Shown here: piece after piece, positions 3,844 to 8,366 of the stretch
How positions within the stretch are numbered: the stretch's first letter is position 1
Layout: each line of letters begins with the position of its first letter
IMG/VR virus record: IMGVR_UViG_3300043427_001127
Span: 107,626 to 171,625 of that record
Length of the DNA: 64,000 nt
Direction: 5' to 3' (one strand)
Source: a virus
Position numbers and translations under genes: made by a program
The notes under the pieces: generated by a model
The model's database searches: none
The model's input: the letters and a program-made list of their open reading frames with translations, nothing else
What the model was told of the DNA's origin: nothing

Positions 3844-3975
3844 CTTGGTACTCGTTAGGCAGATAGCCTAGAAGGAGACCAACTTATCACAAGCGCCTGG
3901 AGATAAACTTGTCTGCTGTGATACGACAGAGGGTAAGTCCCTGTTATATCCTTGAGGTATATCACACTTACTCCA
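3844..3975 (+). ncRNA. Candidate structured RNA between tRNA-Ser and tRNA-Pro
   Basis: The 135-nt gap has no open frame but three consecutive helices. TTGGT (3845-3849) pairs with ACCAA (3878-3882) around TAGGC/GCCTA (3856-3860/3866-3870). TATCACA (3885-3891) pairs with TGTGATA (3917-3923). GGGTAAGT (3931-3938) pairs with ACTTACTC (3966-3973, one GU). It should be co-transcribed with the tRNAs. T4 carries two stable RNAs of unknown role in its tRNA cluster (RNA C and RNA D), and this may be a functional counterpart. Function unknown. Confidence 0.5.
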
Positions 3976-3978
3976 TCA

Positions 3979-4658: not shown

Positions 4659-4674
4659 TTAGGATAGATAAAAA

Positions 4675-5295
4675 ATGAAACTGATTAAACATACAAATTA
4701 CGTATACGAATATCAAAACTTTGTAAGTGATGATGTGTGTGATCACGTAACATCAATCATGCAATCTTCAAATATTTCTTCCGAAATATGGAATGCTGGC
4801 AGAAATGATATTAGAAATAATAATGTTATTAACTTAACAACTTATAAAACTATACAGGGTTGGACAGATCAAAATACTTTACAAAACCTACATAGTGTAG
4901 ATAGTATTTCTCACGAAGTTTTTTCAAAAGTATACCGTGAGTATCTAAAAGATTGCCCTAGGTTATCTTTTACTATGATAAGACAAAAAATCTTAAACTT
5001 TGGTAGTGCGTATTACTATCGAACTTATGATGAAAAAGATTATTATGATTGGCATATAGATCATGATCTTCAAGAAGAAAATCTTCTTTCATTTTTATGG
5101 TACTTGAATGAAGATTATTCTGGTGGAAAACTTATGTTCTTAAATGATAAGATTTCTATTCAACCAAAGAAAGGAAGTCTAATATGTTTTCCTGTTGGTC
5201 ATTGGTGGGTACACAAATCATCACCAATAAAATCTGGGAATAAAAAAGTGATTTGGACTTGCTTTTTTAAAGATAGGGAGAAAAAAAATGTATGA
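4675..5295 (+). CDS. 2OG-Fe(II) oxygenase
   Basis: 206 residues. The prolyl-4-hydroxylase-like double-stranded beta-helix is recognisable by H127-x-D129 (in DWHIDHD), SFLWYLNEDYSGGKL (a typical core strand and turn), PKKGSLICFP and the distal H180 (WWVHKSSPI), with K190/K191 in the place of the 2OG-binding basic residue. These enzymes hydroxylate proteins or small molecules using 2-oxoglutarate and iron; the substrate is unknown. Two further members lie at 56289 and 57835. The gene is AT-rich, starts 16 bp after a tRNA and overlaps the next gene by 8 bp. Confidence 0.85.
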   Translation: MKLIKHTNYVYEYQNFVSDDVCDHVTSIMQSSNISSEIWNAGRNDIRNNNVINLTTYKTIQGWTDQNTLQNLHSVDSISHEVFSKVYREYLKDCPRLSFTMIRQKILNFGSAYYYRTYDEKDYYDWHIDHDLQEENLLSFLWYLNEDYSGGKLMFLNDKISIQPKKGSLICFPVGHWWVHKSSPIKSGNKKVIWTCFFKDREKKNV

Positions 5296-6758: not shown

Positions 6759-6938
6759 ATGAACTTTCGTATTGTTGAGCAACTAGATAATAATGATGAA
6801 GTCATTACTTACTTTCAAGTTCATGAACTTGACAATGGTTATCATTGGGAGTATGATGGTGAGCAACATGGTCCTTTTGGGAACATGCAAGATGCAGTAG
6901 ATTCTGCATATGACAACTTAATACCTGTCTCGGAATGA
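6759..6938 (+). CDS. Small hypothetical protein
   Basis: 59 residues from ATG 6759 (GTG at 6732 is an alternative). Acidic, with a repeated aromatic pattern (YFQVHELDNGYHWEYDGEQHGPFGNM) that suggests a small beta-sheet domain. No family recognised. Confidence 0.5.
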   Translation: MNFRIVEQLDNNDEVITYFQVHELDNGYHWEYDGEQHGPFGNMQDAVDSAYDNLIPVSE

Positions 6939-7074
6939 CACTAAACTTGCCCTGGTCGGGTGAACCCCCTTCTGGTTTCTTGTTTTCCCATTAAAAAACA
7001 AGTGGTGCGGATGGGACTCTCTCCCGCCCAGTTTCCTGCCTCTGGTCAAAGGGCAGGTGGCGAGCCGAGCAACG
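6939..7074 (+). other. Intergenic region with strong hairpins
   Basis: No plausible gene. CTTGTTTT (6979-6986) pairs with AAAACAAG (6995-7002) over 8 nt, and CCTGCC (7035-7040) with GGCAGG (7052-7057). These may terminate the previous transcript or form a small RNA upstream of the tRNA promoter. Confidence 0.4.
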
Positions 7075-7108
7075 GGGGGTTGACATCCCCCACCCTCTCG
7101 GATATAAT
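7075..7108 (+). promoter_or_regulatory. Consensus promoter for initiator-type tRNA-Met
   Basis: A run of G, then TTGACA 7080-7085, 17 bp, TATAAT 7103-7108. The stretch TATAATATGAGGGTCAAC is identical to that at the promoter at 3708-3742. The tRNA starts 11 bp after the -10 box. Confidence 0.9.
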
Positions 7109-7119
7109 ATGAGGGTCAA

Positions 7120-7193
7120 CGCGGGATGGAACAGTCTGGTAGTTCAGCGGTCTCATAAGCCGCAGGTCGCAGGTTCAAATCCTGCTCCCGCCC
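7120..7193 (+). tRNA. tRNA-Met (CAT), initiator type
   Basis: C1 opposes C72 (no pair), then GCGGGA/TCCCGC; D stem GAAC/GTTC has the A11-T24 pair typical of bacterial initiators; anticodon loop CTCATAA. The body closely follows bacterial fMet tRNA (compare CGCGGG, GGTTCAAATCC, AGTCTGGTAG). The anticodon stem keeps G29-C41 and G30-C40 but has T31-G39 in place of the third GC pair. CCA is encoded (7194-7196). It would supply initiator tRNA during infection. Confidence 0.88.
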
Positions 7194-7197
7194 CCAC

Positions 7198-7279
7198 GTC
7201 GCTGTGGCGGAATTGGTAGACGCGCTGGGTTTAGGTTCCAGTGAGGTAACTCGTGAAGGTTCAAGTCCTTTCAGCGACA
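7198..7279 (+). tRNA. tRNA-Leu (TAG)
   Basis: Acceptor GTCGCTG/CAGCGAC, class II D arm TGGCGGAATTGGTAGACG, anticodon stem CTGGG/TCCAG with TAG, long variable arm, discriminator A. It begins 1 bp after the CCA of the initiator-type tRNA. Confidence 0.95.
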
Positions 7280-7326
7280 TTGAGAAAGTGATCCTGCGGG
7301 TTCGCCCAAGAGCTCTCCTTTCTCAA
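7280..7326 (+). ncRNA. Hairpin RNA element directly after tRNA-Leu
   Basis: TTGAGAAAG (7280-7288) pairs perfectly with CTTTCTCAA (7318-7326) and encloses GGG-TTCG-CCC (7298-7307). It starts on the base after the tRNA, so it could be a processing signal, a terminator without T-run, or the first part of a structured RNA. Confidence 0.45.
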
Positions 7327-7344
7327 CTATCTGGCCAGGTAGTA

Positions 7345-7437
7345 TAAAGTTAGCCTAGTCCGAGATTGGCACGGTCGTTATGATATGCTCAAACAGATTG
7401 CCTTTCGCAATCAAGCCTCTATCATCCCGTAACTTTA
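7345..7437 (+). ncRNA. Candidate structured RNA with three nested helices
   Basis: TAAAGTTA (7345-7352) pairs with TAACTTTA (7430-7437); inside it ATGATA (7380-7385) pairs with TATCAT (7420-7425); inside that GATTGC-CTTTC-GCAATC (7396-7412) forms a hairpin. There is no open frame. Position between tRNA-Leu and tRNA-Gly implies co-transcription. A further hairpin region follows to about 7485. Similar in kind to 3844-3975; function unknown. Confidence 0.5.
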
Positions 7438-7530
7438 ACCTGATTGGTTGAGTTGCAATCTCTCTTTAGGGGGAGAATGCTCAAAACTACATAGTATCGT
7501 AGCAGATATATAGTGTAGTAGCGAGCACCT

Positions 7531-7602
7531 GCGGAGTTAGTTCAGCGGTAGAACGCTATCCTTCCAAGTTAGATGTCGTCGGTTCGATTCCGATACTCCG
7601 CT
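7531..7602 (+). tRNA. tRNA-Gly (TCC)
   Basis: Acceptor GCGGAGT/ACTCCGC, anticodon loop CTTCCAA with TCC, T arm GGTTCGATTCC. The anticodon stem CTATC/GTTAG has one T-T mismatch. Confidence 0.92.
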
Positions 7603-7624
7603 CTTATCCCTGAGGATAAATAAC

Positions 7625-7795
7625 ATGTCACTTATTTCACAGAGAGACAGACAAGTTGCCATCAGAGCACTTGAAATGTATGCTGCTGAGGCAGAAACTG
7701 CAGAGTATTATCTGGGGTCTTCGCATCACTCAGCATCTGAAATCAACGCATTACTTAACTGGATTAGATTAGAGTATTACAAACATGAAGATTAA
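7625..7795 (+). CDS. Small helical hypothetical protein
   Basis: 56 residues, ATG 7625 to TAA 7793-7795. Starts MSLISQRDRQVAIRALEMYA and is helical, with many Ala, Glu, Tyr and His. A GAGG sequence lies about 10 nt upstream. It overlaps the next gene by 11 bp. Unknown function. Confidence 0.55.
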   Translation: MSLISQRDRQVAIRALEMYAAEAETAEYYLGSSHHSASEINALLNWIRLEYYKHED

Positions 7796-8297: not shown

Positions 8298-8366
8298 GAT
8301 AAATATATACAATACGTTCATCCCTTTGGGACGGAAGTAAGCCGACTCGGAACGGATCGTTCATCT
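8298..8366 (+). promoter_or_regulatory. Late-type box and structured leader of a small gene
   Basis: GATAAATA (8298-8305) resembles the late -10 box. The leader that follows has the hairpin TCCC-TTT-GGGA (8321-8331) and CGTTCAT repeated at 8315-8321 and 8358-8364, the second copy just before ATG 8367. From memory, unverified, similar leaders precede small genes in other marine cyanophages. Confidence 0.5.

Follow-up and report, generated by a model that had tools for sequence, protein, structure and literature searches.

One spacer of a cyanophage tRNA array holds a conserved 47 nt RNA, an RNA resembling a permuted antitoxin, and a further conserved hairpin

The 251 nt spacer between tRNA-Leu (3' end at 7279) and tRNA-Gly (start at 7531) in the tRNA array of a T4-like cyanophage contains several RNAs and not one nested RNA: element A, a new conserved RNA of 47 nt; M2, a longer RNA with a permuted antitoxin-like part; and M3, a third hairpin. 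With a probability of roughly 0.55, we read the spacer as a set of small structured RNAs within the tRNA transcript, in which M2 would be a decoy antitoxin and element A probably a similar decoy or effector.

Genomic setting

The window, by which we mean the whole 64,000 nt stretch analyzed (positions 107,626 to 171,625 of IMG/VR record IMGVR_UViG_3300043427_001127), is part of a virus record of 171,625 bases. The window comes from a T4-like cyanophage. Its DNA matches numerous phages of this type, and psbA (D1) as well as ferredoxin-, speD- and glutaredoxin-like ORFs were recognized by visual inspection of the listed ORFs. Sixteen tRNA genes were found in it, 13 of them between 1723 and 8273. 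Many adjacent tRNAs in arrays of this type are nearly spacer-free. Rfam scans of the whole window and of the spacer region placed no family in 7280-7530, and element A, M2 and M3 gave no Rfam 15 family at the gathering score or at E≤1. Of note, a glutamine riboswitch-like match (RF01739) lies at 8313-8358 (+), equivalent to L016:2534-2579, with 34.3 bits, slightly under the gathering score of 35. Coordinates of the features discussed are collected in Table 1.

Table 1. Features of the window that are discussed in the text
Feature	Position	Strand	Basis or content
Element B, inter-tRNA hairpin	3845-3882	+	11 rows
wcaG RNA (RF01761)	6971-7071		Rfam
Sigma-70 type promoter, TTGACA-17-TATAAT	7080-7108	+	12/12 matches; upstream of tRNA-Met/tRNA-Leu and the whole spacer block
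tRNA-Leu(tag)	7198-7279	+	ARAGORN, Rfam; 3' end adjoins element A
Element A, 47 nt hairpin RNA	7280-7326	+	19-row alignment, compensatory changes, covariance model R1
M2, conserved RNA of about 98 nt	7327-7424	+	7 distinct rows, model R2
M2: hairpin	7327-7342		
M2: GCC/GGC element, possible pseudoknot	7353-7376		
M2: circularly permuted abiF-like RNA (predicted)	7380-7425	+	parts shared with abiF RNAs of hosts and phages, order swapped
abiF-like unit: closing helix	7380-7385/7420-7425		
abiF-like unit: U	7386		
abiF-like unit: 3 bp	7387-7389/7414-7416		
abiF-like unit: CAAACA	7390-7395		
abiF-like unit: second helix	7396-7401/7407-7412		
abiF-like unit: A	7413		
abiF-like unit: CUC	7417-7419		
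Lineage-specific linker	7426-7478	+	3' arm of the unconserved 8 bp helix, local hairpin
M3, conserved hairpin directly 5' of tRNA-Gly	7479-7530	+	7 rows; z -3.0
tRNA-Gly(tcc)	7531-7603	+	ARAGORN, Rfam

Element A is a conserved RNA of tRNA arrays

An exact 25-mer of element A occurs in 14 IMG/VR viral contigs, and 35 nt of the element are present in Synechococcus phage DSL-LC02, the only isolate phage found to carry it. Because the 25-mer query fixes its own positions by construction, the two halves of the core were also scanned separately. All copies recovered by the 5' half (17/17) and by the 3' half (14/14) were true ones, the other half never differing by more than one base or one insertion. 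These scans added loci L065-L068, each with one substituted base, at 7313 or at 7314, and identified L002 as an element A with one inserted T. The resulting alignment covers 19 loci and 15 distinct sequences; L007, which is identical to the window over the 281 bases compared, was excluded from all alignments. Loci L017-L021 were discarded as chance matches lacking tRNAs.

The element consists of an outer helix, P1 (7280-7288/7318-7326), and a nearly invariant core (7286-7320) that carries GGG(UUCG)CCC at 7298-7307. Thirty-three of the 35 core positions are fixed across the 19 rows, while the tRNA-Asn genes at 17 of the element A loci have a mean identity of 70% and a minimum of 55%. P1 had been singled out by the sequence-only reading as a perfect 9 bp stem directly after tRNA-Leu, and the homologues bear this out: a helix of 6–10 bp is retained in 19/19 loci, with two-sided changes at five of the nine pairs. 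These changes fill 17 cells, compared with a mean of 7.4 in shuffles (0/500 as high) and 3–6 cells in slid controls. The inner structure is a different matter. The minimum-energy inner helix, GGGUUC/GAGCUC, is broken at two pairs in 4 of the 15 distinct rows and was rejected; the inner pairs proposed by RNAalifold are kept in all rows, and none of them varies. The idea that GUGAUCC might pair with the 3' end of 16S RNA was likewise dropped, as it spans only 7 nt that are themselves paired in the consensus.

In 19/19 loci element A lies in a tRNA array, on the tRNA strand and as a single copy, and a promoter with at most one mismatch is found within 1.5 kb upstream in the sense direction at 18/19 loci and in the antisense direction at 1/19. 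Searches of whole records found one copy each in the window's record, two other virus records and DSL-LC02, and none in 13 of the 16 other records. The exact 20 nt core was not found in the genome_contigs collection (84,980 species). We use "host order" for the order of Synechococcus WH7803, a candidate host group for the phage; among 399 genomes of that order the best R1 scores were about 22–24 bits, which is chance level when true copies score 67–77 bits, and no relative of element A in permuted order was detected among 379 host-order genomes. Element A is an undescribed RNA of about 47 nt, and the available portions of the cited literature on tRNA-array RNAs, cyanophage ncRNAs and AbiF do not describe it.

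Could such an RNA be a passive 3' trailer or spacer that aids RNase cutting or protects tRNAs, its core being read by a processing enzyme only? Placement is in keeping with this: the base of P1 lies 0–2 nt after the preceding tRNA in 12/19 loci, and in the other seven, where the distance is 39–45 nt (L001, L003, L005, L011, L013, L065 and L067), a second hairpin stands in between. The same slot is also filled by different hairpins in relatives, once by a plain one. Yet a generic spacer would not need a fixed core of 35 nt, nor would it be expected as a single copy per locus that wanders among six kinds of upstream tRNA, and many array tRNAs abut with hardly any spacer at all. We consider the passive explanation unlikely.

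M2 and its homologues

M2 was found in nine further tRNA arrays, besides the window and L007. A 16 nt pattern hit 43 viral loci, of which nine (L007 included) are true homologues, all with tRNAs nearby, and 34 were rejected as chance matches without tRNAs; a second pattern hit 10 loci, all of them true, and added L064. Seven distinct rows remain once L054 and L056 (spacer identical to that of L044) and L060 (identical to L036) are excluded from alignments A3-A5. The homologous M2 sits between tRNA-Leu(tag) and tRNA-Gly(tcc), although in L062 a tRNA-like insert comes first and in L054 the upstream tRNA lies outside the available stretch. M2 was absent from 50,697 phage records (blastn). Model R2 found no M2 in 10 cyanophage records (best 13.7 bits), and its one match in 299 host-order genomes, at 28.3 bits, is read as chance.

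Helices 7381-7385/7420-7424, 7387-7389/7414-7416 and 7396-7401/7407-7412 are kept in 7/7 rows, the first pair of the outer 6 bp helix (7380/7425) being the exception. The apical helix (7396-7401/7407-7412) shows one two-sided and two one-sided changes. Because there are only seven distinct rows and most of the core is invariant, covariation in M2 is thin, and its whole-structure score was matched by 16/500 shuffles. In L064 two single changes turn a U-U into an A-U pair in the crossing helices 7353-7357/7366-7370 and 7358-7362/7372-7376, which hints at a pseudoknot on the strength of this one sequence.

M2 contains a permuted abiF-like unit

The conserved strands of abiF RNA, AAGCCUCU and AUGCUCAAAC, are both found in M2 with their order swapped, and strands A-GCCUCU and AUGC-CAAAC are present in all seven distinct M2 rows. 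Read 5' to 3', a host abiF RNA (L184) runs 6 bp helix, A, GGC, CUC, 6 bp helix, U, GCC, CAAACA and closure of the first helix, whereas window positions 7380-7425 run 6 bp helix, U, GCU, CAAACA, 6 bp helix, A, AGC, CUC and closure. The predicted folds match part by part: a 6 bp helix, 1 nt, 3 bp and the 3 nt CUC, then a 6 bp helix, 1 nt, 3 bp and the 6 nt CAAACA. In permuted order 18 nucleotides agree, as do the sizes of all helices and loops. The variable helix of M2, 7396-7401/7407-7412, is the counterpart of the outer helix of abiF. As the first pair of the 3 bp helix, hosts have G-C, M2 and phage S-SZBM1 have A-U, and S-CREM1 has U-A. As only the strand order is swapped and all else corresponds one-to-one, we take the unit to be a permuted relative of abiF RNA and not a plain member of RF03085. 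On the letters and predicted folds, both the structure and the circular permutation are well supported.

A text pattern of the unit matched in native abiF order at five loci (L065, L066, L158, L162 and L177). In permuted order it matched the window plus ten M2 loci, L007 among them, and 2.66 Mb of shuffled sequence gave no match. The Rfam abiF model (RF03085) reached scores above its gathering score beside tRNAs in S-SZBM1 (55.7 bits), S-CREM1 (52.2 bits) and L065 (49.3 bits), and in all three the solitary abiF RNA lies 4 nt 5' of the next tRNA. L065 holds both a solitary abiF RNA and element A. The sRNA of S-CREM1 was already annotated as abiF and reported (PMC9964418).

RF03085 itself misses the spacer. 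At the gathering score of 37 bits, applied over the whole window, nothing was detected in 7280-7530, nor was there a match at E≤5 in 6900-7640 or at E≤1 in L016, L054 or L060. Non-detection is to be expected of a permuted RNA, yet it remains a failed test. Together with the fact that the permutation was noticed post hoc, it speaks for the alternative that the likeness is a coincidence and M2 some other RNA. Agreement in 18 nt and in the size of every helix and loop argues against coincidence, as do the empty result in shuffled sequence and the native abiF RNAs of sister phages in equivalent slots, and we judge coincidence improbable.

Abi_2 genes and abiF RNAs in host-order genomes

The Abi_2 domain scored above its cut-off in 11 of 299 host-order genomes (12 at E≤0.001). 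In seven of the 299, abiF RNA was detected at E≤0.01, with 29–34 bits, all of which are under the gathering score of 37. Each of the seven is found in an Abi_2 genome, 119–145 nt upstream of the domain and on its strand, so such toxin-antitoxin pairs do exist in the host order. No Abi_2 gene was found in any of five phage records, among them the window's own record of 171,625 bases. According to the available text of one report and one review, the abiF RNA of C. difficile neutralizes AbiF in trans through direct binding (PMC12373285), and AbiF is an RNase that processes its own RNA, is inhibited by a single-stranded bulge of that RNA, and belongs to a family described as ancestral to Cas13 (PMC12737573).

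M2 and abiF RNA (RF03085) are alike in strands A-GCCUCU and AUGC-CAAACA, in the 3 bp helix, in single strands of 1, 3 and 6 nt, and in two flanking helices of equal size, and both fill cyanophage inter-tRNA slots. They differ in that the GCCUCU strand lies 5' of the CAAAC strand in abiF RNA and the order is opposite in M2. Also, abiF RNA stands upstream of an AbiF/AbiD-type (Abi_2, PF07751) gene in all seven host matches, unlike M2, which is part of an RNA of about 98 nt, has no AbiF gene in the phage and falls under Rfam detection.

Exchangeable hairpins between tRNA genes

Directly 5' of tRNA-Gly, M3 has helices at 7479-7482/7523-7526 and around ACUACA/UGUAGU, with one two-sided change, in L064. 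The linker between M2 and M3 is deleted in L029 and replaced by another hairpin in five other distinct homologues; L062 and L064 have a tRNA-like insert after M2. This tRNA-like domain, with a shortened acceptor stem, lies directly 3' of M2 at approximately L062:264-327 (-) and approximately L064:2666-2735, and of the two copies only that of L062 is recognized by ARAGORN, as tRNA-His(atg).

On the other side of M2, the slot after tRNA-Leu is taken by element A in the window, by element B in L029, L044, L054, L056 and L062, and by two other hairpins in L036/L060 and in L051. Since slot contents differ in this way among relatives, the hairpins are exchangeable cassettes. In element B all 12 pairs are kept in 11/11 rows, with two-sided changes at five. 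As regards a possible RNA anti-CRISPR role of elements A or B, model R1 (for A) and model R3 (for B) gave no convincing host relative (best 23.5 and 25.6 bits, respectively). A fragment with 89% identity to element B over 28 nt (E 0.2) is located at 1501-1528 of Synechococcus phage S-EIVl (L160), a phage not assigned to Kyanoviridae. It lies outside annotated genes and may be a chance match.

The 214 spacers of 25 nt or more in 29 loci contained four families that recur, each after five or six kinds of tRNA: A at 19 loci, a count over-sampled because element A was the query, B at 11, C at 10 and J at 6. None of the four appeared in the full Rfam list for 15 loci. Element C (GACAGAGGGTAAGTCCCTGTTATATCCTTGAGGTATATCAC...), a recurring inter-tRNA sequence at about 3925-3978 of the window, is present without annotation in the isolate cyanophages S-RIM8, S-CREM1, S-SRM01, S-SZBM1 and S-RIM32. 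Element J has the core GCGCTGGAAAGATAAACCAGAATGCC and a variable outer stem, and was seen in L003, L011, L044, L067, L068 and L158, downstream of five kinds of tRNA.

Shuffling of slots between phages could also be the mark of a DNA element, palindromic by chance, such as a recombination or homing-endonuclease site. Watson-Crick changes would preserve a DNA cruciform too, and some arrays have HNH or GIY-YIG genes nearby. The constant strand of element A, the sense bias of its promoters, its single copy per locus and its asymmetric core fit a DNA site poorly, making this explanation quite improbable.

The spacer does not fold as one nested RNA

The sequence-only reading had joined P1, three nested helices at 7345-7437 and further pairing to about 7485 into a single nested design. 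All of the arms are present: besides the perfect 9 bp of P1, an 8 bp helix (7345-7352/7430-7437) and two 6 bp helices (7380-7385/7420-7425 and 7396-7401/7407-7412). The window sequence by itself is able to fold that way, and the fold of 7280-7530 has a z of -2.8 against shuffles, with 0/200 equaling it; single pieces gave -2.15 (7280-7326), -1.4 (7337-7443) and -3.0 (7480-7530). However, a perfect stem of at least 9 bp appears in 9/300 shuffles, so folding energy is insufficient to decide the matter, and the homologues decide it. The two 6 bp helices are retained in 7/7 rows, but the 8 bp helix that would close the design is absent from all six distinct homologues, as the stretch after M2 changes: L029 has lost its 3' arm by deletion, and the five others read CAATCAAA there. 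Loss of pairing among homologues, which the sequence-only reading had named as its refutation, is thus seen for the 8 bp helix and not for the other helices. Pairing toward 7485 does exist, but as part of the separate conserved hairpin at 7479-7530. In relatives the hairpin at 7280 is swapped and 7425-7479 is replaced, deleted or occupied by a tRNA-like insert, independently of M2. One nested regulatory RNA at 7280-7485 or 7345-7437 is therefore rejected as highly improbable, and the spacer is at least three separate small RNAs with independent histories.

That the structure goes beyond a terminator was correctly anticipated: an intrinsic terminator or attenuator in the tRNA-Leu/tRNA-Gly spacer could draw on a single match (7298-7315, tail TCCTTTCTCA) inside element A, where 1.3 are expected by chance, and is very unlikely given that no T run follows P1, that its inner helix is broken in variants L065-L068, and that no new promoter of at least 10 matches precedes M2, M3 and tRNA-Gly, which lie farther along on that strand.

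Relation to known RNAs of phage tRNA arrays

T4 RNAC and RNAD derive from the T4 tRNA region and are described, in the available text, as having unknown roles (PMC3014915, PMC9697503). Element A is like them in being a small RNA within a T4-like tRNA cluster and close to a tRNA; in T4 only 1 nt separates the end of rnaD from tRNA-Arg. The lengths differ, with 139 nt for rnaC and 119 nt for rnaD as against those of element A and M2, and neither R1 nor R2 matched at E≤10 in the T4 tRNA region (68,500-75,500).

The wcaG (RF01761) and manA (RF01745) RNAs, reported in cyanophages (PMC2864571, in the part available), are structured RNAs of T4-like cyanophages that share these tRNA arrays. They are other families, and neither covers 7280-7530. 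Although classed as cis-regulatory, they stand directly before or between tRNA genes here; among the matches listed are the wcaG or manA RNAs at window 6971-7071 and in L036, L051, L064, L062, L029, L044, L001 and L177, with manA at L010:3858-4065 and L177:1716-1930. The manA of S-CREM1 fills the gap from tRNA-Leu to tRNA-Asn exactly. In these phages wcaG and manA may be tRNA-array RNAs rather than mRNA leaders. Additionally, a tmRNA of cyanobacterial type (RF01851, 105.8 bits; also called by ARAGORN) is located near element A in a cyanophage tRNA array, at 4662-4917 (-) of L010 (IMG/VR 3300035703_000005, 248,835 bases).

GOLLD and ROOL are described in the text available (PMC12286853) as phage RNAs that commonly neighbor tRNA islands and whose function is unknown. 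They are far larger than the spacer RNAs, and neither had an Rfam match here. Phage tRNA loci and anti-defense genes are described as amplified under defense pressure in the accessible part of another report (PMC13096335), and cyanophage ncRNA profiles have been published (PMC10665884, likewise available in part). A permuted abiF RNA is not described in the portions available of PMC3014915, PMC9697503, PMC2864571, PMC12286853, PMC13096335, PMC9964418, PMC10665884, PMC12373285 or PMC12737573. Permutation is not mentioned in what was available of PMC12373285 and is mentioned once in that of PMC12737573, for the Cas13a protein fold; we do not claim novelty in print.

A proposed role in infection

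Under the reading of the spacer as several small RNAs, transcription would start from the consensus promoter upstream of tRNA-Met and tRNA-Leu, and tRNA-processing nucleases, to judge from the 0–2 nt spacing, would cut at tRNA ends and free the spacer RNAs. M2 would then display the two-strand abiF core in circularly permuted form. Given that abiF RNA binds and silences the HEPN ribonuclease AbiF, we infer from the likeness that M2 has antitoxin action. It would act in trans, because no AbiF-type gene was found in the phage, as a decoy antitoxin that keeps host AbiF inactive and so protects infection. A permuted antitoxin might, speculatively, bind the toxin while its own ends or processing site lie elsewhere. 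Judging from its position, size and build (a variable helix on a fixed asymmetric core), element A would most likely serve as a decoy or effector in a broadly similar way, directed against another RNA-binding host factor; a like role is suggested because slot, strand and build are shared.

A broader and more doubtful idea is that cyanophage tRNA arrays are arsenals of exchangeable decoy RNAs, with elements A, B, C and J, M2, M3 and solitary abiF mimicking different toxin or nuclease partners. M2 would be a permuted antitoxin whose moved ends could block processing by the toxin, element A a mimic for an RNA-regulated defense, and T4 RNAC and RNAD may be alike.

If M2 does silence host AbiF, the phage is equipped with a lone RNA antitoxin in rearranged form, aimed at an abortive-infection toxin. 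There would then be a testable account of why structured RNAs stand between phage tRNA genes, a puzzle that dates back to T4 RNAC and RNAD, and each recurring inter-tRNA cassette would be a bait for finding a host defense protein. The clearest bait would be element A, with its nearly fixed 35 nt core at loci whose tRNA-Asn genes differ by 30% on average.
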